A stretch of 36,706 nucleotides of DNA, from positions 1-36,706 of the forward strand of contig JACZWL010000029.1 in the NCBI GenBank assembly GCA_022572185.1. Direction: 5' to 3'. The notes under the pieces are model-generated. The model was not told the origin of the DNA. It saw only the letters and a program-made list of their open reading frames with translations, and ran no database searches. Below, one piece after another: positions 6,113 to 32,726 of the stretch. This DNA is from Pseudomonadota bacterium (GTDB lineage Bacteria; Pseudomonadota; Gammaproteobacteria; Steroidobacterales; Woeseiaceae). The first letter of the stretch is position 1, and every line of letters starts with the position of its first letter. A program made the position numbers and the translations under genes.

Positions 6113-6667
6113 GTGAAAATCAAAGGCGAATATCAGATCGCGAGCAGCCGCGAGAAGGTTTGGGCTGCATTGATCGATCCGGAAGTGCTCAAAGAGTGTA
6201 TTCCGGGTTGTGAGTCGCTGGAAAAAATCAGTGACACCGAGTTTGCCGCGAAGGTAATAGCAGCAATCGGCCCGGTCCGGGCGAAATTCGATACCAGCCT
6301 CACGCTGGAAAATATGCAACCGCCGGAGAGCTATACTTTGGTCGGCAGCGGCAAAGGTGGAGCGGCCGGTTTCGGTAGCGGAAGCGCCGACGTTCGGCTT
6401 TACGAGATTGATGGTGGCACGCAGCTGACCTACAGTGCCGAATTCAAAGTCGGCGGCAAACTCGCCCAGGTCGGCTCGCGACTCGTGCTGGGCGCTACCA
6501 GGAAAATGGCCAAAGAGTTTTTTGGAAATTTTTCGCGTAGGCTTGATCCGCATGCGCAACGTATTGAAACGGCAGAGGAAAAAGGCGAGGGCGGCATCTC
6601 GAAGACCTGGCTTGCGGTAGCTGCCGCAGTGGTTGTATTGTTGATTTGGTGGTTCCTGCTAAGCTGA
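6113..6667 (+). CDS. coxG: CoxG-like SRPBCC protein with C-terminal membrane anchor
   Basis: A 184-residue protein. Residues 1-145 form an SRPBCC/START-like fold typical of CO dehydrogenase subunit G ([20 protein letters not shown], then [14 protein letters not shown]). A hydrophobic helix (164-184, [18 protein letters not shown]) closes the protein and should anchor it in the inner membrane with the globular part in the cytoplasm. CoxG proteins attach Mo-hydroxylases to the membrane and have been linked to handing electrons to quinone. Start is GTG 6113. The 52 bases upstream contain GGAAAAAGGGGACGGACTCC, a sequence that looks like a remnant of a dispersed repeat. It precedes coxS by 106 bases. 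Confidence 0.82.
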
Positions 6668-6773
6668 ACGTAGGTCGAAAAAGAGCGGTCGTGCGACTGG
6701 TAGTCCATCAATATCACCTGAGCGGAGTACTGGAACAAAAGGCAATATCAACAAACCTGCAAAGGATGCGTTC

Positions 6774-7244
6774 ATGTCCATAACAGTGTCATTCACGCTC
6801 AACGGCGAGCCCGTGAGTGCAGAGGTTGACAATCACACGCTACTGGTTGAAATGATCCGTGATCAACTCGGACGTACCGGTACGCACATCGGTTGCGATA
6901 CCAGTCAGTGCGGCGCCTGTGTTATTCACGTCGACGGGCGGTCTGTCAAGAGCTGCACGATGCTCGCAGTACAGGCCGAAGGCGCCGATGTCGGAACGAT
7001 CGAAGGTGTTGCACTAAACGGTAAGCTGCATCCCATGCAGGAAGCGTTTCGCGAATACCATGGCTTGCAGTGCGGTTTCTGTACGCCGGGCATGATCATG
7101 AGTGCCCTCGATCTCGTGCAGCAAAACCCCGATCCCAGCGAGCAGGAAATTCGCCAGTGGCTCGTGGGCAATCTTTGCCGTTGCACGGGTTATCAAAATA
7201 TCGTCAGGGCCGTGAGAGCCGGCGCCCAGGCGATGCGGTCATAG
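6774..7244 (+). CDS. coxS: Mo-hydroxylase small subunit, two [2Fe-2S] clusters (CoxS)
   Basis: A 156-residue iron-sulfur subunit of the xanthine oxidase family. The plant-type ferredoxin cluster is bound by Cys41, Cys46, Cys49 and Cys61 ([18 protein letters not shown]); the second cluster by Cys100, Cys103, Cys135 and Cys137 ([23 protein letters not shown]). All eight cysteines are present, so the electron relay from the Mo site to FAD should be intact. AAGGA nine bases before the ATG supports the start. It is followed after 17 bases by coxL, giving the S-L-M gene order typical of form II enzymes (form I CO dehydrogenases are M-S-L). Confidence 0.93.
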
Positions 7245-7261
7245 GAACAAGGGGCGCAGGC

Positions 7262-9646
7262 ATGACAGAAAACGGTATCGGCGCGGCGGTTCGACGTAAA
7301 GAGGACCATCGCTTTATCACGGGCCAGGGACAATACACCGACGACATAAATCGTCCCAACCAGTTGTATGCACACATTATTCGCTCGCCGTTGCCCCATG
7401 CCAGGATTCGCGGAATCGAACTCAAGGCAGCGTTGGATATGCCTGGTGTCGTCGCCGTGCTGACGGGCAAGGACATGGTCGATGACGGGATTGGTGGACT
7501 GCCCTGCGGCTGGGGCGTCAATAACAAAGATGGTTCGCCAATGACGGAACCGGGTCACCCACCGCTTGCCGCCGATACGGTTCGTTACGTTGGCGATCAG
7601 GTAGCTGTCGTACTCGCGGACAAACGCAGCATTGCGCGCGATGCCGCCGAACTGGTTGATATCGATTACGAAGAATTACCCGCTGCTGCAAGCTTGTCGG
7701 CCGCGAGCGCCGAAGCTGCACCGGCCGTGTGGGAGGAAGCGCCCGATAACGTCTGCTTCGACTGGGAGATCGGTGATGCGGCTGCGACCGACGAGGCATT
7801 CGCAAGCGCGGCGCATGTCAGCAGCATCGATATCGTCAATAGCCGACTGATACCCAACGCGATTGAGCCGCGGGTGGCCATCGGCGAATACGACAGCGGC
7901 AGGGACGAGTACACTTTGTATACAACGAGCCAGAACCCGCACGTCATTCGCATGTTGATGGGAGCGTTTGTCCTCAGTATTCCCGAACACAAGCTTCGTA
8001 TCATCGCGCCCGATGTCGGTGGTGGTTTTGGTTCCAAGATTTGTCACTATGCCGAGGAAGCGATCGTTACCTGGGCTTCGAAGCGCGTGAACCGGCCGGT
8101 CAAGTGGACGGCGGATCGCAGCGAGTCATTCATGAGCGATGCGCATGGCAGGGACCACATATCACATGCCGAACTCGCGCTAAGCAAGGATGGTGACTTC
8201 CTGGGACTGAGAGTACGGACGAAAGCGAACCTGGGTGCCTACTTGTCGACATTCGGGCCGGCGGTGCCGACTTATCTTTATGCCACTTTGCTGGCAGGCA
8301 CTTACAAAACACCCGCCATTTACTGTGAAGTGAAGGGCATGTTCACTCACTCGGTTCCCGTCGATTCGTATCGCGGAGCCGGGCGCCCGGAGGCCTGCTA
8401 TTTGCTTGAACGACTCGTGGACAGGGCCGCGAGAGAAACCGGCATCGATCCGCTCGAGATCAGGCGCCGAAACTTCATTCCACGGGACGGCTTTCCGTAT
8501 CAAACCCCGGTATTACTCGAGTACGACTCGGGTGATTATCATGCGTGCCTGGACAAATGCCTCGAGCTTGCCGATTACAAAGGCTTCGAGAAACGCCGGG
8601 CCGAGTCGGCTGAGCGTGGCAAATTAAGAGGCGTCGGTTTATCGACCTATATCGAGGCCTGCGGTATTGCGCCGTCAAATGTTGCCGGCGCACTCGGTGC
8701 CCGCGCCGGGCTTTACGAATCCGGAACGATACGCGTAAATCCGACCGGCTCTGTGACGGTATTGACCGGGTCGCACAGTCACGGGCAGGGACACGAGACC
8801 ACGTTTGCGCAACTCGTGACCGAGGCGCTTGGCGTAGACTTCGACAACGTCGACGTTGTCCATGGCGACACAGGCAAGATTCCCTTCGGCATGGGCACTT
8901 ATGGTTCGCGGTCACTTGCCGTTGGTGGCATGGCATTGATGGCAGCGCTGGAAAAAATAAAAACAAAATCCAGGAAGATTGCCGCCCACTTGCTTGAAGC
9001 GTCCGAAGACGACGTCGAATTTGTTGACGGACAGCTGCGGGTTGCCGGCACGGATCGCACAGTAAGCTTTGGCGATGTCGCCCTCGCAGCATATGTGCCG
9101 CATAACTACCCGCTCGATGTTCTCGAGCCGGGGCTGGATGAAACGGCCTTTTATGACCCGAAGAATTGGACGTTTCCAGCCGGCTGCCATATATGCGAGG
9201 TCGAGATAGATCCGGATACCGGTGTCGTCGAGATTGACCGGTTCACGGCTGCCGACGATTTCGGACGAATAATCAATCCGATGATTGTTGAGGGTCAGGT
9301 CCACGGTGGTCTGACGCAGGGCATCGGTCAGGCGCTCTACGAGCAGTGTGTCTATGATGATTCCGGCCAGTTGCTAACCGGTTCCTATATGGATTACTGC
9401 ATGCCGAAAGCCGATAACTTGCCGAATTTCGAAGTGACGACGAACACGACGCTCTGCACCCACAACGTACTTGGGGTCAAGGGATGTGGCGAGGCCGGGA
9501 CAATTGGTTCTACGCCCGCCGTTATCAATGCCGTCGTCGACGCATTGTCGGAGCTCGGCGTGAATGATGTTCCGATTCCGGCGACGCCGGAGCGTGTCTG
9601 GGACGCAATCCGTACGGCAGCACACAACCGCGCCGTATCCGCCTAG
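7262..9646 (+). CDS. coxL: Form II CoxL-like molybdenum hydroxylase large subunit
   Basis: A 794-residue catalytic subunit of the xanthine oxidase/CO dehydrogenase family, binding molybdopterin cytosine dinucleotide. Landmarks: [21 protein letters not shown] (248-259), [20 protein letters not shown] (505-524), and the catalytic Glu744 in [12 protein letters not shown]. The active-site loop is SYRGAGR (369-375), the form II signature; the Cu-binding cysteine of true CO dehydrogenase (AYxCSFR) is absent. Form II enzymes hydroxylate N-heterocycles, aldehydes or purine-like compounds, or have unknown substrates. The ATG at 7262, preceded by AAGGGG and AGG, is preferred over an upstream in-frame extension that overlaps coxS. 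The substrate cannot be read from sequence. Confidence 0.92.
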
Positions 9647-9675
9647 AAACGTAAGGATCAAAACAGGGATTCACT

Positions 9676-10473
9676 ATGTACGAGTTTCAGTATCACCGGC
9701 CGGCTTCGATCGATGAAGCAAAAAAGATCCTTGCGGATAACGACGAAGCAATAATTCTCGCAGGTGGCATGACTATGCTGCCGACGATGAAGTTGCGCCT
9801 CGCGCGACCCTCCGACCTGGTCGATTTGAGCGCGATTGATTCGCTCCGCGGAATCAGGAAAGATGGCAAGACCATCGAAATCGGTGCAATGACGCCGCAC
9901 GCGGACGTTGCCGGTAGCAGCGTAGTGCAGTCCGAGATACCGGCACTGGCGGATCTCGCCGGTATGATCGGCGATGCCCAGGTTCGAAATCGCGGCACGA
10001 TCGGAGGTTCATTGTCCAACAGCGATCCTGCCGCCGATTACCCGGCCGCCGTTCTTGGCCTGAACGCGGTCATCAAGACAGACACGCGCGAGATTGCGGC
10101 TGACGATTTCTTCAAAGACTTGTTCGAGACGGCACTCGGGCCCAACGAGATCATCCAGGCTGTCCGGTTTCCAAAGCCAAAGCGAGCCGCTTATGCCAAG
10201 TTTCCGAACCCGGCGTCGCGCTATGCTGTCGTCGGCGTGATGATCGCGGAAACGACGGATGGCATTCGCGCGGCCGTAACGGGCGCCGGTCCCTGTGCGT
10301 TTCGTGCGACCGAGATCGAAGCGGCATTGGCGAAAGACTTTTCCGCGACGGCACTGGACGGGCTGACGTTTGACGCTGGCGATTTGAATGATGATTTGCA
10401 CGCAAGCCCTGAGTACCGTGCTCATCTTGTAATTGTCATGGCAAAACGGGCGGTTGCTGCGGCGAGTGTCTGA
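9676..10473 (+). CDS. coxM: Mo-hydroxylase FAD subunit (CoxM)
   Basis: A 265-residue medium subunit of the CoxM/CutM family. The two FAD-binding motifs are AGGMTMLPTMKLR (29-41) and TIGGSLSNSDPAADYP (108-123), followed by the CO_deh_flav_C region. It takes electrons from the two iron-sulfur clusters of CoxS and passes them to an acceptor, perhaps quinone through CoxG. An AGGGA ribosome-binding site precedes the ATG. Its stop overlaps the coxD start by eight bases, so translation is probably coupled. Complete and normal in length. Confidence 0.92.
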   Translation: MYEFQYHRPASIDEAKKILADNDEAIILAGGMTMLPTMKLRLARPSDLVDLSAIDSLRGIRKDGKTIEIGAMTPHADVAGSSVVQSEIPALADLAGMIGDAQVRNRGTIGGSLSNSDPAADYPAAVLGLNAVIKTDTREIAADDFFKDLFETALGPNEIIQAVRFPKPKRAAYAKFPNPASRYAVVGVMIAETTDGIRAAVTGAGPCAFRATEIEAALAKDFSATALDGLTFDAGDLNDDLHASPEYRAHLVIVMAKRAVAAASV

Positions 10474-11380
10474 ATCCTCGAACAAGAGAGACTTGCCGGG
10501 AGACGTTTCAGAAACACGTTCGCTCCTGATCAGCGGTGACTACATTGCCGGGCGCGATCTTGCGACCGTTGTTTACCTGGCACTGCACATGGGCCGGCCG
10601 ATGTTGCTCGAAGGTGAGGCGGGTGTCGGCAAAACCGAAATCGCCAAGGTTCTTGCCGCCACGCTCGGTCGCGACCTGATTCGTTTGCAATGTTTTGAGG
10701 GGCTGGACCTGGCGAGCGCGGTGTATGAGTGGAACTATCCTCGGCAGATGGTCGCGATCCGTATTGCCGAGGCCGAAGGCGATACCGGGGACATCGGCAA
10801 GAACCTCTACAGCCGGGAATTCTTGACGGAAAGACCACTACTTAGCGCGCTCGAGGAACATGCCAACGGGCCGCCGGTACTGCTGATCGATGAAATCGAT
10901 CGTGCCGATGAGCCGTTCGAAGCATTTCTGCTGGAGCTCCTTTCTGATTTTCAAATCAGTATCCCGGAACTCGGCACGATCAAGGCGAAAGAGCCACCCA
11001 TAGTCGTGATCACGTCGAACCGGACACGCGAAGTTCATGACGCGTTACGCCGCCGCTGTCTGTACCACTGGGTCGATTACCCGAGCCAGGAAACCGAGTC
11101 CCGCATCGTTGCGCTGAAAGCGCCGGATATTGCCGATGAGCTGCGCGATCAGCTCGTTGCATTCATACACAAACTCCGCGAGCAGGACCTGTTCAAGCGG
11201 CCCGGAGTTGCGGAGGTGATCGACTGGGCGAACGCATTGACTCAACTCGATGTCGTGACCTTAACGCCCGAAGTGCTGGATGACACCCTGGGATCATTGC
11301 TGAAGTATCAGGACGACATTGCGAAGCTGCGGGGTAGCGAGGCCGCCCGGCTGCTGGCGGAAATTCAAGCCGCCGCATGA
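10466..11380 (+). CDS. coxD: MoxR-family AAA+ ATPase (CoxD)
   Basis: A 304-residue MoxR-type ATPase. Walker A is GEAGVGKT (50-57) and Walker B VLLIDEID (138-145), with VVITSNRTREVHDALRRRC following. CoxD proteins, with a VWA partner, mature the Mo active site of CO dehydrogenase-type enzymes. I chose the GTG at 10466, eight bases into the coxM 3' end; a more upstream ATG at 10433 would overlap by 41 bases and adds residues not typical of the family. Its TGA overlaps the ATG of the VWA gene in an ATGA. In this context it should act on the CoxSLM enzyme in the cytoplasm. Confidence 0.9.
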   Translation: MSESSNKRDLPGDVSETRSLLISGDYIAGRDLATVVYLALHMGRPMLLEGEAGVGKTEIAKVLAATLGRDLIRLQCFEGLDLASAVYEWNYPRQMVAIRIAEAEGDTGDIGKNLYSREFLTERPLLSALEEHANGPPVLLIDEIDRADEPFEAFLLELLSDFQISIPELGTIKAKEPPIVVITSNRTREVHDALRRRCLYHWVDYPSQETESRIVALKAPDIADELRDQLVAFIHKLREQDLFKRPGVAEVIDWANALTQLDVVTLTPEVLDDTLGSLLKYQDDIAKLRGSEAARLLAEIQAAA

Positions 11381-12615
11381 GCGCAGGAAATGCAAGCAGA
11401 GCGGCTGACTCGGGCCGCCTCGCCGACAATATCCTGATGTTTTGCAGGACCCTGCGCAATGCTGGTCTGCCAATCGGCCCCGGCCGGGTGCTGGACGCGA
11501 TGGCTGCAGTTCGCTGTGCAGGAATCGATCGCCGTGATGATTTTTACTGGGCCCTGCGCGCGGTACTGGTGAATGATCCGGCCCAATTTCGCCTGTTCGA
11601 TCAGGCTTTTCACGTCTATTTTCGTAATCCTCGCCTGTTGGAGCGGATGATGTCGCTGCTGCTGCCCACGCTTGAAATGGATTCGCTCAGCGCCCCGGCA
11701 GAAGCACCCATTCGCCGCCTGCGCGAGGCCATGTCCGGTACCGGCAGCGGCCGGGCCGACGAAGAACAAGGCACACAAATCGGAATTGATCAGTCGGGGT
11801 CCTGGTCTCGTCGCGAAGTGCTGAGGCACAAGGATTTTGAAGAGATGAGCCTGGAAGAGCAAAGCGAGGCGGATGAGTTGTTGCGGGCAGAGATTCTTGC
11901 AATTGCAAATGTCGCAACGCGCCGTTATCGCTTTCATCCTTACGGTAATCGCTTTGATTTGCGGCGGTCAATGAGGTTGATGCTCAAAAATAGCGGCCAG
12001 CTCATCGAGCTTGTCAGGAAGCGTCGACTTATGAATCCGCGACCACTGGTATTGATCTGCGATATCTCGGGATCGATGAGCCGCTATTCGCGAGTGTTTC
12101 TGTATTTCGCCCACGTCATGACCTCGCGGCAACATCGGGTTCACACATTCGTTTTTGGCACACGGCTCACGAACATCACGCGCAGGCTTGCCGACAAGGA
12201 CATCGACAGAGCGCTCGCCGCGGTATCGGCGGACGTGAAAGACTGGGACGGTGGTACCAGGATCGCCGAGTGCCTCGAGCGCTTTAATGTAGACTGGGGC
12301 CGCAGAGTGCTCGCCCAAAGCGGCATCGTCATATTATTGAGCGATGGCCTCGAGCGGGACTCGAAAGCTGACCTCGGATTTCAAATGCAAAGGCTGCATC
12401 GCTCCTGTCGGCAGTTGATATGGTTGAACCCGATGCTCAGGTATTCGCAATTCGAACCCAGGGCAATGGGTATCAGGACGATGTTGCCGCATGTTGATTT
12501 ATTTTTGCCCGCCCACAATATTGAAAGCCTCGGCCAACTGAGCCGCTTATTGCAGCAGGATACAGACAGCGGACGAGCGAGCAGGCCCCTGGCAGCATTT
12601 CAGGCAACACAATGA
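11377..12615 (+). CDS. coxE: VWA-domain protein, CoxE-like
   Basis: A 412-residue protein of the CoxE family. The C-terminal half is a von Willebrand A domain with the metal-binding MIDAS motif DISGSMS (229-235), and later GGTRIAECLERF and IVILLSDGLERD. CoxE works with the MoxR ATPase CoxD in assembling the active site of Mo-hydroxylases. Residues 110-170 are charged and probably flexible. Start ATG overlaps the coxD stop (ATGA), and its own stop overlaps the next start in the same way, so coxD, coxE and the xdhC-like gene form a tightly coupled unit. Confidence 0.9.
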   Translation: MSAGNASRAADSGRLADNILMFCRTLRNAGLPIGPGRVLDAMAAVRCAGIDRRDDFYWALRAVLVNDPAQFRLFDQAFHVYFRNPRLLERMMSLLLPTLEMDSLSAPAEAPIRRLREAMSGTGSGRADEEQGTQIGIDQSGSWSRREVLRHKDFEEMSLEEQSEADELLRAEILAIANVATRRYRFHPYGNRFDLRRSMRLMLKNSGQLIELVRKRRLMNPRPLVLICDISGSMSRYSRVFLYFAHVMTSRQHRVHTFVFGTRLTNITRRLADKDIDRALAAVSADVKDWDGGTRIAECLERFNVDWGRRVLAQSGIVILLSDGLERDSKADLGFQMQRLHRSCRQLIWLNPMLRYSQFEPRAMGIRTMLPHVDLFLPAHNIESLGQLSRLLQQDTDSGRASRPLAAFQATQ

Positions 12616-13670
12616 CGCTAAAAAACCTCCTGAAATCTTTTGACGAATGGCGCAAGCAACAACAAGCACTCGTACTCGCAAGTGTCTATGAGACTGCGGG
12701 ATCCACTTACAGCAAGACCGGCGCCCGCATGCTCATCAATTCCGATGGTGATTATCAGGGAATGCTCTCAGGTGGCTGCCTCGAAGGCGATCTTGCAGAG
12801 CGGGCGCGAGCGGTACTCACCTCCGGGACTGCTCAGATGGTTACCTATGATCTGGGCCTCAATGATGAAGAGTTATGGGGTCTCGGCATCGGTTGTGACG
12901 GACTGATGAGAATATTTTTGCAAGCCCTGCGCGCCGAAAACAACTACGCGCCGTTTGTGGCGATAGCCAGGGCATATGAGGGCGATCATCCCGAGCTTGC
13001 CGCAACAGTGCTTGTGTCCGACCAGGATGGCATCGAGCCTGGTGCTACGCTGGTTACGGCAGACGAGAATGTGGAACTCTTCGGCCTGACTGATGATGCT
13101 GCCAAGGACCTGCTGGTTGAGTCGAAGGCCGCATTGGCCGACAACATGTCTTTGACCAGGCAGGTTCAGATCGGCGATGCAAAAGCAACTGTCCTGTTTG
13201 CCCTCATCAAACCACGCCCACGCTTGCTCGTACTGGGAGCAGGGCTTGATGCCGAACCGGTGACTCGCCTGGCGGCCGAACTGGGCTGGCACATTACCGT
13301 GATTGACCACCGTCCTGCGTACATCGAGAAAGGCAGTTTCGACGATGCGGACAAGGTCATTTGCTGTCCGGCGGATGAGATGGCCGACATTGTCGATCTG
13401 GCGAAGTTCAATACAACGATCGTCATGAGTCACCATCTCGCAACCGATCGCAGCTATCTGGCTCAGTTGTCCAAGTCAGACATCCAATATATCGGGCTGC
13501 TGGGGCCGAAAGACCGGCGCAAGCGCCTGCTTGAAGACCTCGGCGATGATGCCAGGGACCTGGAAGGACGGTTGCATGGGCCTGCCGGCCTCGATATTGC
13601 TGCGGTCGGGCCGGCGGCAATCGCGTTATCGATTCTGGCAGAGATGCACGGCGATCTTGCCGGCTGCTGA
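12612..13670 (+). CDS. XdhC/CoxF-family Mo-enzyme maturation protein
   Basis: A 352-residue XdhC-family protein. The N-terminal XdhC/CoxI domain shows VLASVYETAGSTYSKTGARM and SGGCLEGD (53-60); the C-terminal half is a Rossmann-like domain (RLLVLGAGLDAEPVTRLAAELGW, VIDHRPAY, then YIGLLGPKDRRKRLLEDLG). XdhC proteins bind the molybdenum cofactor, support its sulfuration and insert it into the large subunit. It is translationally coupled to coxE through ATGA and is the last gene of the array. Its stop (13668-13670) abuts the stop of the convergent TetR gene with no space for a separate terminator. Confidence 0.9.
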   Translation: MTLKNLLKSFDEWRKQQQALVLASVYETAGSTYSKTGARMLINSDGDYQGMLSGGCLEGDLAERARAVLTSGTAQMVTYDLGLNDEELWGLGIGCDGLMRIFLQALRAENNYAPFVAIARAYEGDHPELAATVLVSDQDGIEPGATLVTADENVELFGLTDDAAKDLLVESKAALADNMSLTRQVQIGDAKATVLFALIKPRPRLLVLGAGLDAEPVTRLAAELGWHITVIDHRPAYIEKGSFDDADKVICCPADEMADIVDLAKFNTTIVMSHHLATDRSYLAQLSKSDIQYIGLLGPKDRRKRLLEDLGDDARDLEGRLHGPAGLDIAAVGPAAIALSILAEMHGDLAGC

Positions 13671-14366
13671 TCAGGCTCCTGGTTCAGGTTCTTGTCCCGT
13701 GCCGGACTGCTCGTTTACACGCAAAGGCAGGAACACATCGATGATCATATCCGCCAGCTCATCGATCTTGCCCGGCGCGTTAAGGTCGATGCCGCTGGTG
13801 CCCTTCAATTCGTGGCCGAGCGCAACCAAGCCGCCTGCGGCCACACGAATCATGTTGAACAAAATCGCGACATCACCTTGCGGGGCGATTCCCTGCTCCT
13901 GAAGCTTCTTGAGGTTCTTGACGGACACTTCGAACAAAGGGCGCAGATGCGTTCTGATCAGCCATTCGAGGCGGCTGCTCGGGTGACTTGCTTCCTGCAC
14001 CAGCACCTTGTGCAAAGCTGGCCGGCTGGCTGCGTAATGCACGTACGTGCGTATGAGACTGGCCATTCGTGTGCGGGGGCATTCGTTGACCGACTCCTGT
14101 AATGCCCGGCTCATGGACACATTGAATTCGGAAAAAATCCGGTCGGCAGCGGCGCGCCAGAGTTCTTCCTTGTTCTTGAAATGGTAGGTAATAAGCGGGT
14201 GATGAACGCCGGCTCTTACCGCGATATCGCGGGTCGATGTGCCCTTGAAACCGTTCTCGGAAAACGCCTCGATCGCTGCATCCAGCAACTTCTGCTGGGT
14301 CTTGAGGCTGCGTTTTTGTTGCTTCCGAGGTGCTTTTTCTTCTGTATTTTTCGATTCCACGCTCAC
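13671..14366 (-). CDS. TetR-family transcriptional regulator
   Basis: A regulator of about 231 residues. The N-terminal TetR helix-turn-helix is clear: QQKLLDAAIEAFSENGFKGTSTRDIAVRAGVHHPLITYHFKNKEELW. The C-terminal ligand domain is not recognisable to a specific subfamily. I chose GTG 14366 because GGTGGA lies about nine bases upstream and because a likely promoter at 14405-14432 would leave almost no leader for the more upstream TTG at 14396. It is convergent with the cox-like array and abuts its last stop, so it may regulate that array or the adjacent divergent functions; this is inference. Confidence 0.87.
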   Translation of the reverse strand: MSVESKNTEEKAPRKQQKRSLKTQQKLLDAAIEAFSENGFKGTSTRDIAVRAGVHHPLITYHFKNKEELWRAAADRIFSEFNVSMSRALQESVNECPRTRMASLIRTYVHYAASRPALHKVLVQEASHPSSRLEWLIRTHLRPLFEVSVKNLKKLQEQGIAPQGDVAILFNMIRVAAGGLVALGHELKGTSGIDLNAPGKIDELADMIIDVFLPLRVNEQSGTGQEPEPGA

Positions 14367-14404
14367 CGTGCGGCGTCCACCCAGATACTTCGGCAATCCC
14401 GTAG

Positions 14405-14503: not shown

Positions 14504-17500
14504 CTACTGCAAGGTGAACATCATCCGCACAGCCACCCGTCTTTCGACGGCTACACCGTTCTCGACAACAGGCTCGAAGCGCCATTGGCTGATGGCCTTG
14601 GTGGCGGAATCGTCGAACACCGAGCCAGGCGTCGACTCGATGATTTCAATGCTATGGACACTGCCTTCCCGCGAAACGGTGAAACTCACATCGACCCAGC
14701 CGCTGGTGTTTCTGCGCTCCGCAGACCGCGGATACTTGGGTGCCACGTAATTCGTTCGTTTCAGCCGGTTGATGGCTAGCGGTTCCGGCCGGCTTCCTGC
14801 GGCTTCCGCGGTGGTCGAAGCCCGAGAAAATTGAGCGTCGGCAGTCGCAGTCGCGACGGCGAGCAAGGTTTTTTCTGCCGTGCCGCTTTGTTGTACCACC
14901 GGCGGTTCAATCGTTGCGGCTGCTTGTTCGTCAGCGTCCGCAACAGTCCGGGACTGATCCGCAGCTTCCGGCCTGACACCACTCGGCTTGTCCTGCGCTG
15001 TTTGCGTTTGAGTTGCCACTGCAGCTGCAGCCACTACCGCTGCAGCTGCAGCAGCCTTTTCTGCGGCAGCCTGTCTTCGCGTCTCGGCTTCACGTTCTGC
15101 TGTCAGCTGTCGCTCAAGTTCGGCCTGCCTTTCGATGGTTGCTTGCCGTTCTCTTGCTGCACGTCGTTCAGCTTCCGCCAGGCGTTCGGCTTCCGCCAGG
15201 CGTTCGGCTTCCGCTTTTCTGAGAACGGCCGCCTGGCGTTCTGCTTCCTGCCTTGCTGCGGCGGCTTGCCGTTCAGCTTCCGCCAGGCGTTCGGCTTCCG
15301 CCACGCGTTCGATTTCCGCCAGGCGTTCGGCTTCCACTTTTCTGAGAACGACCGCCTGGCGTTCTGCTTCCTGCCTTGCCGCGGCGGCTTGCCGTTCAGC
15401 TTCCGCCAATCGTTCGGCTTCTGCTTTTCTCAGAACGGCTGCCTGGCGCTCAGCTTCCTGCCTGGCCCTGGTGTCATCTAACGCTGTCTTGGAGGTAGCG
15501 AGGTCGCTGTTGGTCGGATCCATCGCTTCGGCATCCCGGAGCAGGCTGCCGGCGAGAGCGAATTGTTCCTTGTCGATCGCCGTTCGTGCCTTGAGGGCCA
15601 GTTTACTGGCTATGATCGTGATGCCTTGCTCAGCGGCCGGGTTTTGCGGGTCATTGCTGAGGACCAGCTCATAGTAGTAGCGTGCATTGTCATTTGACGG
15701 CGTGATCAGCTTATCGTCATTGAGACGTGCGCTTGCAAGTGCGAGTACTTCATCGACTCGCTGTGCGCTGCGCGCGGTGGACAGTTCCTGCTTCAGGACA
15801 TTGATTTCCGTCGTGTCGCGGGTGCGCAGGGCTTCCGCGTCACCAATCAGTTTGCCGGCGTCTTCGAAGCGACCGGACCGAATCGCGGCCCGCGCCTGGT
15901 CTGTCGTATTTCGGAACCGCAGCTGCAGCAACTGTGCGTCCAGGAATACGAGACGGGAGTTGCCAGGGTCAGCGAGGCGGACCACTTGAAGTGCCTCGGC
16001 CGCATCTTCCATGCGCTCTTCGAGCAGCGCTGTCTCGGTCATGCCGAGCGTCTGATTTACGACCTGTTCGAACTCCGCCGCGACGACTCCATTGTTCGGC
16101 GCCGAAGACATCGCTGCCAGGTAGAGTTCGACAGCGTTCGAACCGGGTGGACTGAAGATCCGTCCGAAGTCTCGTGCGATCCTTGCGTTGTCAAGCAGGT
16201 TCTCAATACCCGGCACTGCTGGTGATTTAATCGACTGTGGACCAGACGGCCGTATCGGCAAGTCCGATTCGACAATTGTCGGAACCCGCGCTGCTTCCTC
16301 GGGCACAGATTCGGGCATTAATGAATCCCAGTTACTGGCAAGCCAGTATCCCCCCCCGATAACGGTCACCAGGCTGGCAACGATTGCGAGATTCCTGGGC
16401 TTCCGCAGTGGGGCAGTCGCAGCGGCCAGTAATTTTCCGAAAGTTTTGCCGGAAAACATTAGCACCGTGATTGCGCCTCCGGCGATCAGTCTGAATGCGC
16501 CCGACAGAAATTTTCCGATGAAACTTGCAATGCCGCTCATCGTTTCACTGAAGCCGCCGCCTTGCTCGAAGGGATCGGACAAGCGATCGGCTTTAGATGA
16601 TGCGACGATTGGTGTCGGCACGGGATGACGCTTTGCCTTGGGCTGTGGTTGCGCCGTCGGCTTCAATTGCGCCTTGGACGTTGGCTTCAGTTGTGCCTTG
16701 GCCGTCGGCTTCGGTTTGGCCCTGGCCATCGGCTTCGCTTTCGCCTTGGCCTTCGGCCTTGCTGCTCGTACCGGCTTCGCCGGCGCCACTTTGACGGCTG
16801 ACTTTGGTCTGCCCTTGAACGCGGAATCTGCCGCCTCGAGGTGGTGCTTGACTGATGCTTCGATCGCCAGTCGGGCACGCCCCGGTGACACGGGCTTCAA
16901 AAGGAACCGATATACGTGTCCACGATTGATCAGGTCCATCAGTAGTTCGCCGTCGTCACGACGTCCGGCGACGACAGCAACGAGGCGCGGAACGGCTTTA
17001 CGCAGACGTTCAATCAGTATTTCGACGTTGGCACCGATCATTGCCGCGTCGGTAACGAGAACACCAACCTTATGCCCCCGGGCAATCTTATTGGCCTGCG
17101 TCGGTGTGTTCGCATGATGGACGGTGTGAAGGCCGCGGGCCGAGTCCCGGACCGTTGCAAGAAACTCGTCGTCCCTCGTAAGGACGAGGACGTCGATCTG
17201 GCGTCCGCCAATGTTTGGCACAAGCGGCACTCTTCCCGGTTTCAATGCTGGCATTCTGCCGGTGCCATCGCTGATAATCGATGTGCCGTTCTCCAACGTT
17301 TCCATGACTATGTGTTCGGCAACCGGCTCATCCGGATTCGCTGCCTGATCGTTCGCTGATTCAGACAATGCAACGAGTCTTACGCGACGTGTCGCCTCGT
17401 CAATCAGTTCGCGTAATTCGGGGGGGGTGATCGCGCCGCGAATGATTTGAAAAACTTCCTGATCGCCAACCAGCGCTTCAAGGCCGTCGTCGCGGTCGGT

Positions 17501-17758
17501 GCCGGCAAGCAAAATGCCGATTGTGTCCGGCGAACGTTTTCTTGCTTCGCGAAGTGCTTCCAGTCCACTCATGCCGGGAAGATCCTGAGCAGTAACGATG
17601 ACATGAATTGGAGTTTCGCCAAGCGTGTTTAGCGCTTCCGTGCCAGTCGTAGCGAGGTGAACGGAATATCGATCGTTAAATCCGGCACTCAGCACTTCCA
17701 GCGTGCTCTGTTGACTGTGTAGCAACAGTATTTGAGTTTTGAAATGCTCGCGCCCCAC
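14504..17758 (-). CDS. Receiver-receiver-TM-coiled-coil-TonB fusion protein
   Basis: A 1084-residue multidomain protein. Residues 7-128 look like a degenerate response-regulator receiver: the phospho-Asp position holds Ala57 (TAQDLPGMSG), and the conserved Lys is replaced. Residues 187-308 form a second receiver with Asp237 (LVTDAAM) and Lys288-Pro289 kept. A Lys/Pro/Ala-rich linker (320-380) and hydrophobic segments (414-436 and a stronger one at 456-476) follow. Residues 540-760 have TPR-like helices; 766-905 are a repeated AERQAAA/RKAEAERLAEAER coiled coil; 995-1084 are a TonB C-terminal domain (YPRSAERRNTSGWVDVSFTVSREG, WRFEPVVENG). The natural topology is cytoplasmic receivers with a periplasmic TonB end. 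AAGGAG seven bases before the GTG start is strong. No exbB or exbD is nearby. Confidence 0.85.
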   Translation of the reverse strand: MGREHFKTQILLLHSQQSTLEVLSAGFNDRYSVHLATTGTEALNTLGETPIHVIVTAQDLPGMSGLEALREARKRSPDTIGILLAGTDRDDGLEALVGDQEVFQIIRGAITPPELRELIDEATRRVRLVALSESANDQAANPDEPVAEHIVMETLENGTSIISDGTGRMPALKPGRVPLVPNIGGRQIDVLVLTRDDEFLATVRDSARGLHTVHHANTPTQANKIARGHKVGVLVTDAAMIGANVEILIERLRKAVPRLVAVVAGRRDDGELLMDLINRGHVYRFLLKPVSPGRARLAIEASVKHHLEAADSAFKGRPKSAVKVAPAKPVRAARPKAKAKAKPMARAKPKPTAKAQLKPTSKAQLKPTAQPQPKAKRHPVPTPIVASSKADRLSDPFEQGGGFSETMSGIASFIGKFLSGAFRLIAGGAITVLMFSGKTFGKLLAAATAPLRKPRNLAIVASLVTVIGGGYWLASNWDSLMPESVPEEAARVPTIVESDLPIRPSGPQSIKSPAVPGIENLLDNARIARDFGRIFSPPGSNAVELYLAAMSSAPNNGVVAAEFEQVVNQTLGMTETALLEERMEDAAEALQVVRLADPGNSRLVFLDAQLLQLRFRNTTDQARAAIRSGRFEDAGKLIGDAEALRTRDTTEINVLKQELSTARSAQRVDEVLALASARLNDDKLITPSNDNARYYYELVLSNDPQNPAAEQGITIIASKLALKARTAIDKEQFALAGSLLRDAEAMDPTNSDLATSKTALDDTRARQEAERQAAVLRKAEAERLAEAERQAAAARQEAERQAVVLRKVEAERLAEIERVAEAERLAEAERQAAAARQEAERQAAVLRKAEAERLAEAERLAEAERRAARERQATIERQAELERQLTAEREAETRRQAAAEKAAAAAAVVAAAAVATQTQTAQDKPSGVRPEAADQSRTVADADEQAAATIEPPVVQQSGTAEKTLLAVATATADAQFSRASTTAEAAGSRPEPLAINRLKRTNYVAPKYPRSAERRNTSGWVDVSFTVSREGSVHSIEIIESTPGSVFDDSATKAISQWRFEPVVENGVAVERRVAVRMMFTLQ
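15149..15463. repeat. Imperfect internal tandem repeats encoding the coiled coil
   Basis: Within the TonB-fusion gene the plus strand repeats a block that begins CTTTTCTGAGAACG and runs through GCCTGGCGTTCTGCTTCCTG. Copies begin at 15214, 15337 and 15424, so the spacing is 123 and then 87 bases (41 and 29 codons). Shorter units of the type GCTTCCGCCAGGCGTTCG fill the space. All spacings are multiples of three, so copy-number change would lengthen or shorten the coiled coil without breaking the frame. Confidence 0.8.
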
Positions 17759-18065
17759 TTCCGTGCTCCTTGGCGGCTTATGTTTAATTGCGGCGACAGA
17801 CCTTACGGCCGACGAGTATAGCCGTCACGCGGTTCGGAAATGGTGCCGGAGCCCGACGAGATTCGGAATCTGTGACAGGGCGCACAGTCGGTGTGCAGCC
17901 GGCTTCACGTATGGATGGGAGTGTATTGTCGGAGGGCCGGCAAGGGAGCGCGCGGGCAAGACCGTCAGCAAGCACGTGGTGAAACAGTGGTTCAGCAAGC
18001 TAATATTGGTGGGCTCAGCGAGTCGTGAAGCGGTTAACCGCCAGGGTTGTCTGCTTTGAATTTTT
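17759..18065. other. Intergenic region between the TonB-fusion gene and thrS
   Basis: A 307-base gap. It carries the AAGGAG ribosome-binding site of the TonB-fusion gene and, on the minus strand, a TATACT hexamer (17820-17815) that could be its -10 element; no convincing -35 is seen. I find no tRNA, no stable terminator hairpin after thrS and no credible ORF; infC-rpmI-rplT, the usual downstream neighbours of thrS in gammaproteobacteria, are absent. Confidence 0.5.
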
Positions 18066-19988
18066 CTAGGTGCTGCGGCCCCGGTTGCGGATTTCGCCGG
18101 AGAGTTCTGCAACGGCTTCGACGACAGACACGACCTTCTGTTTCTTCGACCCGAGCCTTCGCATAGCGACGGTCTCTTCGTCTACTTCGCGCTGTCCAAC
18201 GGCCAGCAGTACAGGTATTTTTGCAACGCTGTGCTCGCGGACCTTGTACGAAATCTTCTCGTTTCTGAGATCTGCGTCCGCTGTGATGCCAGCATCACGA
18301 AGCCTGGCTACGACATCAAGAGCATATTCATCCGCAGCCGATGTAATCGTCAGCACCTTCGCCTGAGTCGGTGCAAGCCAGAGTGGCAAGTTGCCGGCGT
18401 GATGCTCCAGGAGAATGCCAATGAATCTTTCCAACGAGCCGAATATCGCACGGTGCAACATAACCGGCGTGTGTTTTTGGCCATCCTCCCCAATGTATGT
18501 GGCGCCGAGCCGGGCCGGCATGTTCAGATCGACCTGATGTGTTCCGCATTGCCAGTCGCGGCCGATGGCATCTCGCAGAACGAACTCCAGCTTGGGGCCG
18601 TAAAATGCGCCTTCGCCGGGATTGTAGATGTACTCCAGCCCGGATGTTTCGAGCGCCTGTTTCAATGCTGCTTCGGCCTGGTCCCAGACTTCATCATCGC
18701 CAACACGATTCGTTGGCCGGTCCGCGAACTTGATCAGCACGTCATCGAAACCGAAATCGCGATAGACGCCGAGTATTAAATCGCATACTGCGATGGTCTC
18801 TTCCGTAATCTGCTCCGGTGTGCAGAAGATGTGCGCGTCGTCCTGGGTAAATGCGCGCACCCGCAGCATCCCATGCAATGCCCCTGACGGTTCGTAGCGA
18901 TGGCACTTGCCAAATTCTGCCAGACGATACGGCAAGTCTCGATAGCTCTTGATGCCTTGATTGAATATCTGGATATGCCCCGGGCAATTCATCGGTTTGA
19001 TCGCATAACAGCGGCCGTCCTCCATGTCGCTCGTGTACATATGCTCGCCGAAGACTTCCCAGTGACCGGACGCTTCCCAGAGTGAGCGATCCATGATTTC
19101 GGGCGCGTTGACTTCCTGGTAAGCGGCTTCGTTCTGACGCCGGCGCATATAGTCGATGAGGGTCTGGAACAGGCGCCAGCCTTTGGGATGCCAGAATACG
19201 GCGCCGGGCGCTTCCTCCTGGAAATGAAACAGGTCCATCAACTTGCCCAAGCGGCGGTGGTCGCGTTTCTCGGCCTCTTCGAGCTGCATCATGTGTTGCC
19301 GGAGCTGCTTCTCATTCGCCCAGGCGGTGCCGTAAATTCTTTGCAGCATGGCGTTTCGAGAGTCACCGCGCCAATAGGCCCCGGATACGCGGGTCAGGTG
19401 AAAGGCCTTGCCCAGTTTTCCGGTAGACGGCAAGTGCGGACCGCGACACAGATCGATAAAGTCACCCTGCTGGTACAGCGTTAGCGTCTCTTCCTCCGGG
19501 ATGTCCTCAATAATCCGCGCTTTGTATTCTTCGCCGATCCCACGAAAGAACTCGATAGCCTTGCTTCGCTCCCAGACTTCCCGCTGAATTTTCTCGTCGC
19601 GGTCGACGATTTCCTGCATCCGCTCTTCAATGACAACGAGGTCTTCGGGTGTAAACGGTTCTTCACGCGCGAAATCGTAGTAAAAGCCATTCTCGATCGC
19701 GGGACCGATAGTTACCTGAGTTTCCGGCCATAACTCCTTTACGGCTTCGGCCAGCACGTGGGCCGCATCATGACGCAGAATCTCCAGTCCGTCCGGCGTA
19801 TCTCTCGTTATGATTTCAACAGACGGATCATCAGCAATGCTGCGAGTCAGATCCCAGAGCTCGCCGTCAACCCGAATGGCAACGGCATCACGGGCCAGGC
19901 CTTGGCCAATTGCGCCAGCTATCTCTTGTCCCGTCACGTCGTGTTTGAACTTGCGTTCGGAACCGTCGGGTAGCTTGATTATTGGCAT
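18066..19988 (-). CDS. thrS: Threonyl-tRNA synthetase
   Basis: A full-length, 640-residue class II ThrRS that charges tRNA-Thr in the cytoplasm. Domains in order: TGS-like N1 (1-62), editing domain with HDAAH (73-77) and CRGPH (181-185), catalytic core (about 245-535) and anticodon-binding domain (540-640). The zinc ligands align with E. coli Cys334/His385/His511 as Cys335 (MNCPGH), His386 (DDAHIF) and His512 ([13 protein letters not shown]). A GAAGAGA ribosome-binding site precedes the ATG. It is divergent from zur, and not followed by infC, rpmI and rplT as in E. coli. Complete, no damage seen. Confidence 0.98.
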
Positions 19989-31229: not shown

Positions 31230-32726
31230 TCATCGCTGCTGCAGCCAGCCGGGCAGGAACGTGTAAGGATCGACGTCGATATCCTTGTTGTAGACGACCG
31301 AATTCTTTTCCAACAGCTCGGCCAGTTCCCCGTCTTTCTGAGAGTCGAAGAGTTCCGTAGCCCCGCCAATGAATTGGCCGCCGACGAAAACCTGCGGAAT
31401 CGTCTTGGAGCCGGTGCGCTCCCTGAGTGCGGCGCGTATCTTGCCGCCTTTGTTGTCTTCCTGATACGCGACCGAATCGAGGTCGATCGACCGGTAGGGA
31501 ATTTCATACTTTGCAAACATCTTGCGGAGTGACCAGCAAAACTCACACCATTCGAGCGCAAATAGCACCACCGGCTGGTCGGCGTCGCTGATCGTATCGT
31601 TCAGGAACTTCACGGCATCGGCCGGGGCCTCGATCTCCGGTTCTTCCGTCGCCGCTTTGTCGGGTCTGGCCGGTGGCGGTGCATCGAATCTGGCGCCAGG
31701 CGTTGATCTGGAGATTTCGAATTCCTCATCCGTCATGTCGGCCGGAATGTCATCGAACAGCGGCGTGGAGAGATATCGCTCACCCGTGTCGGGCAACATG
31801 CAGAGTACGGTTGTGCCTTCCTCGGCGCCTTCGCAGACCTGTAATGCACCGGCCAGGGTCGCGCCCGCGGAAATGCCGACGAATATGCCTTCCTCGCTGG
31901 CGAGCGCCTTCGACAGTCTCAATGCATCGTCGCCACTGACCGGTATCACTTTGTCGATGGTTTTCATGGCCACGGCGTCTTCGGTCAGCTTCGGGATAAA
32001 GTCCGGGCTCCATCCCTGCATCAGGTGCGGGCGAAACAGCGGATGACTGTCGGCCGGCGTGCCGTCGGCCGTGCGTTCCTGAGGAATGCCGCTGCCGAGT
32101 ATTTGTGAATTATCGGGCTCGCAAACGATGATTTGGGTGTCCGGGCGTTTCTCTTTGAGCACCCTCGAGACGCCTTTCAAGGTGCCGCCGGTGCCGAATC
32201 CGGTCACCCAGTAATCCAGTCGCTCGCCCTCGAAGTCTGCGAGGATCTCCGGGGCGGTGGTATTCGAGTGCGCGTCGGCGTTTGCCTCGTTTTCAAATTG
32301 CCGGGTCAGGTACCAGCCATGCTCTTCGGCCAGTTCGACTGCCTTGGCAAGCATGCCACTGCCCTTGAGCTCGGCCGGGGTCAGAACGACTTTGGCGCCC
32401 AGGAACCGCATCATCTTGCGACGCTCGATGCTGAAATTCTCGGCCATGGTCACGACCAGCGGATAACCCTTCTGGGCACACACCATCGCGAGGCCGATGC
32501 CGGTATTCCCGCTGGTCGCCTCGACGACGGTCTGACCCGGTTTCAATTGGCCGGTTCTCTCGGCATGTTCGATGACACCAAGGGCCAGGCGGTCTTTGAC
32601 CGATCCCATCGGATTAAAGGACTCGATTTTCACGAAGAGGTTGATGCCGTCGGGGGCCAGTTTGTTCAGTCGCACAACCGGCGTATTGCCTATCGTTTCG
32701 AGAATATTTTCATACTTCGCCGACAT
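31230..32726 (-). CDS. Cysteine synthase fused to a C-terminal glutaredoxin domain
   Basis: A 498-residue fusion. Residues 1-330 are an O-acetylserine sulfhydrylase (CysK/CysM fold II): NTPVVRLNKL, PLP Lys44 in NPMGSVKDR, TSGNTG (71-76), GTGGT (178-182) and ISAGAT (285-290). Residues 340-370 are an acidic, Pro/Ala-rich linker. Residues 375-498 are a glutaredoxin-type thioredoxin fold with the redox pair Cys394/Cys397 (EWCEFCWS) and TIPQVFVGGQFIGG (442-455), where the cis-Pro is expected. The PLP enzyme should make cysteine from O-acetylserine and sulfide (or thiosulfate); the glutaredoxin may reduce an S-sulfocysteine product or regulate the enzyme. AGAGGA nine bases before the ATG supports the start. 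Confidence 0.92.
   Translation of the reverse strand: MSAKYENILETIGNTPVVRLNKLAPDGINLFVKIESFNPMGSVKDRLALGVIEHAERTGQLKPGQTVVEATSGNTGIGLAMVCAQKGYPLVVTMAENFSIERRKMMRFLGAKVVLTPAELKGSGMLAKAVELAEEHGWYLTRQFENEANADAHSNTTAPEILADFEGERLDYWVTGFGTGGTLKGVSRVLKEKRPDTQIIVCEPDNSQILGSGIPQERTADGTPADSHPLFRPHLMQGWSPDFIPKLTEDAVAMKTIDKVIPVSGDDALRLSKALASEEGIFVGISAGATLAGALQVCEGAEEGTTVLCMLPDTGERYLSTPLFDDIPADMTDEEFEISRSTPGARFDAPPPARPDKAATEEPEIEAPADAVKFLNDTISDADQPVVLFALEWCEFCWSLRKMFAKYEIPYRSIDLDSVAYQEDNKGGKIRAALRERTGSKTIPQVFVGGQFIGGATELFDSQKDGELAELLEKNSVVYNKDIDVDPYTFLPGWLQQR

Follow-up and report, generated by a model that had tools for sequence, protein, structure and literature searches.

A gene on contig JACZWL010000029.1 of a Woeseiaceae (Gammaproteobacteria) assembly, GCA_022572185.1, encodes a protein in which two receiver domains are followed by a basic linker, a membrane segment, tetratricopeptide repeat (TPR)-like helices, a long helix, and a TonB C-terminal domain. 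The contig stretch analyzed here, the window, has a length of 36,706 nucleotides and belongs to a 3.14 Mb genome assembled in 99 contigs (G000). Both receivers are, as judged from residues and predicted structure, pseudo-receivers that keep the fold and lack catalytic residues. We consider it probable, with moderate confidence, that the protein is an inner-membrane-anchored tether or transducer that spans the envelope of Woeseiaceae and is steered by a protein or ligand bound to its pseudo-receivers, rather than an importer driven by ExbB and ExbD.

The reading frame at 14,504–17,758 of the minus strand is open throughout its 1084 codons and starts with GTG (Table 1); a promoter scan for the gene returned no site. 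Pfam assigns two stretches of the protein to Response_reg (E 8e-13) and residues 1006–1083 to TonB_C (E 2.5e-20), above the curated cut-offs. Structures were predicted by AlphaFold for residues 1–322 with a 43-row alignment and for residues 480–1084 with a 41-row alignment. The first model (mean pLDDT 77, residues 133–185 below 50) is formed by two alpha/beta receiver folds, for which the best Foldseek match is the tandem receiver pair of PleD, or the HupR receiver when single domains are compared. The second model (mean pLDDT 81) can be divided into a solenoid (residues 518–746), a 144-residue helix (751–894), a low-confidence Pro/Ala stretch, and the TonB domain (1001–1081). The relative placing of the domains is unreliable, because the pTM values of the two models are 0.45 and 0.49. 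The TonB domain matches TonB of P. aeruginosa from the complex with FoxA (6i97_D) with a Foldseek rmsd of 1.0 and a TM-score by target length of 0.91. The TPR label is weaker, as Foldseek matches to TPR proteins have E values of about 5e-4 or worse and low TM-scores, and Pfam detects no TPR in the protein at E 0.1. A preliminary description of the window, made from its letters alone, had read one gene with a receiver, receiver, membrane, TPR/coiled-coil, and TonB layout, and had named a missing receiver fold at residues 1–310 as evidence against it. The layout is borne out by the intact reading frame, Pfam, AlphaFold, Foldseek, and orthologues, and both receiver folds are predicted.

Orthologues are present in 20 of 24 other genomes of the same family, as one full-length open reading frame (ORF) in 16 of them, nearly whole at a contig end in G007, and in pieces at contig ends in G005, G015, and G024. 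The four genomes that lack an orthologue share one genus code and have sizes of 1.3–2.0 Mb. A search of named contigs with an alignment (A1) gave the best 80 of 86 relatives, which correspond to 79 distinct loci, whereas the window protein as a single query found no relative there. By blastp coverage, 53 of the 79 loci, from independent assemblies, contain one full-length ORF; 38 are from records named Woeseia or Woeseiaceae, and the others bear wider names, for example Gammaproteobacteria. The neighbors thrS and a TetR-family regulator recur at the loci with room for them (Table 1), with L105, which is without thrS, and L095, which is without tetR, as the exceptions; room was missing at eight loci upstream and 12 downstream. 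Since the orthologues recur with these fixed neighbors, a sequencing artefact is ruled out, and the gene is real and conserved. A class-wide survey for the fused form found it in two of 369 genomes, G000 itself and G009. The counts from genome surveys are lower bounds, because few candidates were scored per genome (19 in the family survey, six in the class survey with an operon protein, five in the order, four in the phylum, and two in the class survey for the fused form).

Conservation was read from a 65-row alignment that includes the window protein and was assembled with two search patterns, the receiver 2 motif VAGRR-DDG and the linker motif EHIVMET. Fifteen named loci in which the ORF is cut, split, short, or missing, or its start is doubtful, were left out (L080, L084, L085, L092, L098, L101, L108, L110, L112, L114, L116, L128, L131, L132, and L137). 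The receivers are the best-conserved parts of the protein, with mean pairwise identities of 72% (receiver 1) and 75% (receiver 2), followed by TonB_C (63%), the solenoid (52%), and the long helix (37%), and the pseudo-receivers therefore look constrained rather than decaying.

A receiver is described as requiring two acidic residues, an aspartate, a threonine or serine, and a lysine, and one that misses any of them as a pseudo-receiver (PMC12632262). Receiver 1 has none of the five: the corresponding positions in the 65 orthologues are His14 (65), Ser15 (63), Ala57 (62), Ala85 (63, with threonine in two), and Gly108 (64). Receiver 2 has two of the five, and thus neither domain has the residue set of a canonical response regulator. 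In the window, Thr194 and Arg195 stand in place of the acidic pair and Ala264 in place of Thr/Ser, and Asp237 and Lys288 are kept; among the orthologues, position 194 is threonine or serine in all 65, position 195 is lysine, glutamine, arginine, histidine, or threonine, and Asp237, Ala264, and Lys288 are present in 65 each. The preliminary description had correctly recognized the loss of the phospho-accepting aspartate from receiver 1 and the retention of Asp237 and Lys288 in receiver 2, but had overlooked that receiver 2 is also without the acidic pair and Thr/Ser. The conservation of columns within the search motifs, Ala264 included, is partly built in, because the relatives were picked by those patterns. 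Ala57, Asp237, and Lys288 are outside the patterns, and the 18 rows of alignment A1, which were chosen by whole-protein similarity and are in many cases from the same organisms as the 65, agree; Ala264 is invariant there too. Asp196, which adjoins the lost acidic pair, is invariant in all 65 sequences, and an equivalent aspartate is present in 31 of 32 receivers of the operon described below. We read this invariance as structural or ligand-related, and it is also the best argument for residual chemistry.

The membrane segment is located at about residues 456–478, and so the protein is without the short cytoplasmic tail and single N-terminal membrane segment of TonB transducers. A Ser/His motif in the membrane segment of TonB contacts ExbB. 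The window protein has the TonB C-terminal fold and lacks this motif and linked ExbB/ExbD genes, and the aligned membrane columns contain no histidine in any of the 65 orthologues. The Lys-rich linker precedes the membrane segment, and the net charge is more positive before the segment than after it in 61 of the 65 sequences; the receivers are therefore predicted to be inside and the TonB domain outside. Residues 417–435 of the window protein are slightly more hydrophobic than the membrane segment itself, although the value exceeds 1.6 there in only three of the 65 orthologues, and we therefore infer the number of membrane passes from the family.

Table 1. Positions of the gene, its domains, selected residues, and conserved neighbors in the window
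Feature	Position	Strand	Basis
Whole gene, 1084 aa, GTG start, REC-REC-linker-TM-TPR-like-helix-TonB_C (REC, receiver; TM, transmembrane segment)	14504..17758	minus	ORF, Pfam, orthologues
Receiver 1 (residues 7–130), aspartate-less pseudo-receiver	17369..17740	minus	Pfam, AlphaFold, residues in 65 orthologues
Ala57, phospho-Asp position of receiver 1	17588..17590	minus	Ala in 62/65, never Asp
Receiver 2 (residues 187–312), pseudo-receiver	16823..17200	minus	AlphaFold, orthologue alignments
Asp237, phospho-Asp position of receiver 2	17048..17050	minus	Asp in 65/65
Lys/Pro/Ala-rich linker (313–400), predicted cytoplasmic	16559..16822	minus	Sequence; mean pairwise identity 35%
Hydrophobic stretch 417–435 before TM, probably a helix lying along the membrane, but possibly a second pass	16454..16510	minus	Hydropathy
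Transmembrane segment (about 456–478), no His	16325..16393	minus	Alignment, hydropathy, His check
TPR-like helical solenoid (518–746), predicted periplasmic	15521..16207	minus	AlphaFold; weak Foldseek TPR matches
Ala/Glu/Arg-rich single helix (751–894)	15077..15508	minus	AlphaFold; length varies between orthologues
TonB C-terminal domain (1001–1084)	14507..14758	minus	Pfam, PDB matches
AAGGAG, ribosome-binding-like motif, 7 nt before GTG	17766..17771	minus	Read in sequence; putative function
thrS, conserved upstream neighbor	18066..19988	minus	Pfam; upstream in 70/71 named loci with room (of 79)
TetR-family regulator, conserved downstream neighbor	13671..14396	minus	Pfam; downstream in 66/67 named loci with room (of 79)

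Relatives of the window protein include a two-gene form that belongs to a homologous operon, in which genes for a histidine kinase, a tandem receiver (REC-REC) protein, and a TM-TonB protein follow each other in the same order. A survey of the order with a REC-REC profile matched 28 of 296 genomes at E 1e-45, 16 from the same family and 12 from four other family codes. All three genes are matched in order and on one strand at 31 of 33 loci in the 28 genomes; the remaining two, L205 and L208, are contig-end pieces of one genome and perhaps a single operon, and the kinase runs off the contig in two of the 31 (L194 and L200). The gaps between the genes, −4 to 60 and −16 to 39 nucleotides (23 triads, longest-ORF starts), are operon-like. 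One of 274 genomes, from the same family, was matched in a class survey with one operon protein. The phylum survey with the REC-REC profile gave 12 matches in 11 of 398 genomes, which we read as ordinary receivers because all are confined to the positions of receiver 1.

Pfam identifies HATPase_c and HisKA in eight of nine scanned operon kinases (HisKA under the cut-off in five) and a DAHL-like sensor, always under the cut-off, in five of the nine; L062 shows nothing. Receiver 1 of the operon is catalytically intact in 31 of 32 readable copies, with aspartate at the three acidic positions in 32, 31, and 32 copies, threonine in 31, and lysine in 32, and both exceptions are from L062. Receiver 2 has threonine or serine instead of the first acid in all 32 copies, the second acid in three, the phospho-accepting aspartate in 31, serine in 29, and lysine in 29. 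It is thus chiefly without the acidic pair, and receiver 2 of the window has additionally lost Thr/Ser. Each of the 23 operon TonB proteins checked has one N-terminal membrane segment, within about residues 11–46, that contains no histidine; TonB_C was assigned by Pfam for L045 and by similarity for others. The genes that flank the operon vary, and no ExbB/ExbD or TonB-dependent receptor is found among eight of them scanned from seven loci. The operon resembles a two-component system whose output is a TonB-like envelope arm, and the control of TonB by a kinase and receiver that the preliminary description had proposed fits this relative better than the window gene.

Some operons differ in composition. 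One contains an enlarged REC-REC gene of 797 residues (L206:3187-5580), in which Pfam shows one Response_reg stretch, at receiver 1. Just after three operons is a gene for a second TonB_C protein (L195:2179-3288, L204:6233-7372, and L207:891-2000) with the TonB_C domain mid-protein, at about residues 131–215 of 369–379. The genes selA and selB adjoin another operon (L054:9914-13236).

The window gene has the domain order of the operon family and homologous parts, and differs from it in the absence of an adjacent kinase and of an intact receiver 1. A midpoint-rooted tree was calculated from 125 columns of 105 receiver domains, with 15 of the 65 fused rows and without L062, L205, and L208. A branch with an SH-aLRT value of 99 separates the receiver 2 domains of the two forms, together with three single-receiver proteins, from receiver 1 of the two forms, which is on the other side with 12 ordinary receivers. 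The stem that leads to the fused receiver 1 is long (1.41), which is what a loss of catalysis would be expected to produce. On these sequence comparisons the window gene is a fused, kinase-less relative of the three-gene operon that shares a common ancestor with it. The claim is limited to shared ancestry in position and does not extend to the direction of fusion, because of the long branches, the 125 columns, and the midpoint root. The fused gene and the kinase operon coexist in five same-family genomes (G003, G007, G008, G009, and G017), and in them the only other matches of the window receivers at 1e-10, from up to 19 scored candidates in each genome, are the operon receivers. The REC-REC profile survey found no operon in G000 at E 1e-45.

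The import of substrates through TonB-dependent receptors appears to be served by another protein. G000 contains six MotA_ExbB matches, all on contigs other than that of the window, and on contig C69 a 201-residue TonB is encoded beside two MotA_ExbB matches and an ExbD recognized by eye. G004 and G014 have one short TonB each, nine and 15 receptors, respectively, and no window-type gene. Because of the C69 cluster, the membrane segment without histidine, and the receptors kept in genomes that lack the gene, the window protein is unlikely to be the import TonB of G000, a role that fits the 201-residue protein, and this is why we propose a tether or transducer. The identity as a canonical TonB was rejected on the membrane segment, the cytoplasmic tail, and the gene linkage. 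The absence of a kinase, ExbB, and ExbD beside the gene, claimed previously, holds for the 28 additional ORFs of the window that were searched with Pfam, which are a subset of all ORFs and of which one has no match at all.

In the proposed working, the topology, docking, direction of signaling, and outer-membrane contact would be as follows. The tandem pseudo-receivers would form a cytoplasmic docking platform, either constitutive or regulated by a ligand or protein. The membrane segment would hand the state of the receivers to the periplasmic solenoid and long helix, and the TonB domain may touch either the cell wall or a protein of the outer membrane, perhaps a TonB-dependent receptor.

Several points weigh against this proposal. 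Asp237, Lys288, and Asp196 are invariant in 65 of 65 sequences, and some phospho-chemistry or metal binding could survive; pseudo-receivers that keep the aspartate may be weaker response regulators, according to the account cited above (PMC12632262). Receiver 2 of the operon may likewise not be wholly inert, because its aspartate, serine, and lysine are largely kept. Coupling to ExbB/ExbD in trans is possible, since the TonB cluster of G000 includes two ExbB-like genes. Should the second hydrophobic stretch of the window protein cross the membrane, the topology would be inverted. In the receiver tree, the groups are joined through long branches.

Signals could also travel from the outside in, with the TPR and TonB_C region sensing receptor occupancy or the state of the envelope and the pseudo-receivers binding a cytoplasmic regulator. 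The high conservation of the receivers is expected for an output surface, and TonB_C is also found on Ser/Thr kinase proteins in related genomes, one of which (L055) directly adjoins a TonB-dependent receptor gene. However, no partner gene recurs at the locus beyond the housekeeping-type neighbors, and in the operon form the kinase is the likely sensor, which suggests an inside-out flow. We consider this arrangement unlikely.

A role as a second energy transducer, serving some of the TonB-dependent receptors with energy from ExbB/ExbD in trans, is quite unlikely. The fold and family score of TonB_C are good, and receptor matches are abundant in genomes with the gene (15 in G000, 21 in G011, 53 in G008, and 57 in G006) whereas the four reduced genomes that lack it have 9, 15, 8, and 6. 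Nevertheless, receptor number is no clean correlate of the gene, since G000 and G014 both have 15, and G004 and G014 keep a short TonB and receptors without it. About 450 residues precede the membrane segment, and membrane histidines are missing from the 65 orthologues and the 23 operon TonB proteins alike. TonB_C was not seen in G019 and G022, which are less complete genomes. The window contains one TonB-dependent receptor gene (33,562–36,375), about 16 kb from the gene.

The preliminary description had suggested that a phosphorelay onto Asp237 controls the TonB domain, in which case an orphan kinase would phosphorylate this residue and alter the periplasmic arm. The linkage of TonB to signaling in the architecture stands, whereas the relay onto the window protein is unlikely because both receivers are pseudo-receivers, and we regard phosphorylation at Asp237 as very doubtful. 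The invariance of Asp237, Lys288, and Asp196 speaks for it, and cross-talk is possible in the five genomes in which the fused gene occurs together with the kinase operon. Against it, the first acid and Thr/Ser are missing in 65 of 65 sequences (the Ala264 column is partly pattern-selected, yet invariant in the 18 rows of A1), receiver 1 has no aspartate, and no kinase is encoded among the scanned neighbors. No full-length relative of the operon kinase was found in G000, G006, G011, or G016 at E 1e-15, and matches in G000 cover only residues 438–633 of 671. An assembly chimera of two genes, the joining error that the preliminary description had raised as a caveat, is practically excluded: the operon form does consist of two genes, L085 is split in two ORFs, and the ORFs of L116 and L137 start late, but the single full-length ORF of 16 same-family genomes and 53 named loci, in independent assemblies with conserved synteny, rules it out.

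Among described proteins, GltG and GltJ of the Agl-Glt system of Myxococcus xanthus come nearest; they are TolA/TonB-like and, similar to the window protein, have a single membrane segment, a periplasmic helical part, and TonB_C (PMC5349195). GltG combines an FHA domain (PF00498) with a TonB domain (PF03544) (PMC3169522); it is described as part of the gliding machine, and its contact with the TolQ-like AglR was seen in a two-hybrid assay (PMC3169522, PMC5349195). GltG is encoded in a cluster of motility genes. The window protein, by contrast, carries receivers and, by Pfam, no FHA, and its neighbors are thrS and tetR, with no motor genes among those scanned. The FHA domain of GltG is cytoplasmic. 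The fold of the C-terminal domain is common to the window protein, TonB, and TolA, and the long helix resembles that of TolA. Unlike TonB and TolA, the window protein has a large cytoplasmic receiver region, a membrane segment without histidine, and no ExbB/ExbD or TolQ/TolR among the scanned neighbors; TonB proteins are characterized as generally without a cytoplasmic domain (PMC8262864).

The window and operon forms have a tandem receiver pair as in PleD, but combine it with a membrane TonB-like protein instead of GGDEF, and in the window protein receiver 1 is dead too. PleD resembles the operon form in having a canonical receiver 1 and a pseudo-receiver as receiver 2. Some pseudo-receivers exert regulation in the absence of aspartate phosphorylation (PMC7010744, PMC12632262), for example REC1 of ShkA, on which cyclic di-GMP acts (PMC7010744), and those of the window protein may by analogy bind a partner or ligand.

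TonB_C is combined with a Ser/Thr protein kinase at five loci of related genomes, as identified by Pfam (L055:7087-9594, L058:6568-8904, and L060:5798-8401) or similarity (L056 and L057), and a TonB-dependent receptor gene is within a few kb at L055 and L060. Proteins of 580–676 residues from L048, L049, and L059, and less clearly L051, contain one receiver-2-like stretch by blastp; the three that were scanned have TonB_C, and Pfam detects no Response_reg in them at 0.01. The L049 gene adjoins an rpoD-like gene. Signaling domains on TonB_C proteins are an already known kind; the receiver-TonB protein and the kinase/receiver/TonB operon are the new part. Neither was found in titles or abstract beginnings among the matches listed from open-licence PMC papers.

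Elsewhere in the window, positions 6,113–13,670 contain a cluster for a molybdenum hydroxylase, which comprises CoxG, the large and FAD subunits, an AAA ATPase, CoxE, and XdhC. In the large subunit, the sequence SYRGAGR is reminiscent of form II CO-dehydrogenase-like enzymes. A pyridoxal phosphate-dependent enzyme (PALP) fused to a C-terminal glutaredoxin domain is encoded at 31,230–32,726.

We tentatively suggest, as a possibility held with low confidence, that there is a class of two-component systems with a mechanical or spatial output, in which a kinase phosphorylates a pair of receivers that in turn govern a TonB-like arm extending to the outer membrane. In this view, the window protein would be a cis-fused relative, with ligand or partner binding on two pseudo-receivers in place of phosphorylation. 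Two-component systems mostly act inside the cell, by binding DNA or proteins or through enzymes. If true, the operon of a kinase, a canonical receiver, and a TonB-like protein would extend these outputs to the envelope. The means by which pseudo-receivers are switched has been called a mystery (PMC12632262). Comparison with the fused form, which has no kinase, offers a natural way to see what phosphorylation adds. Woeseiaceae are abundant in sediments, and the gene, present in 20 of the 24 sampled genomes, provides a handle on the envelope biology of a marine family known mainly from metagenomes.

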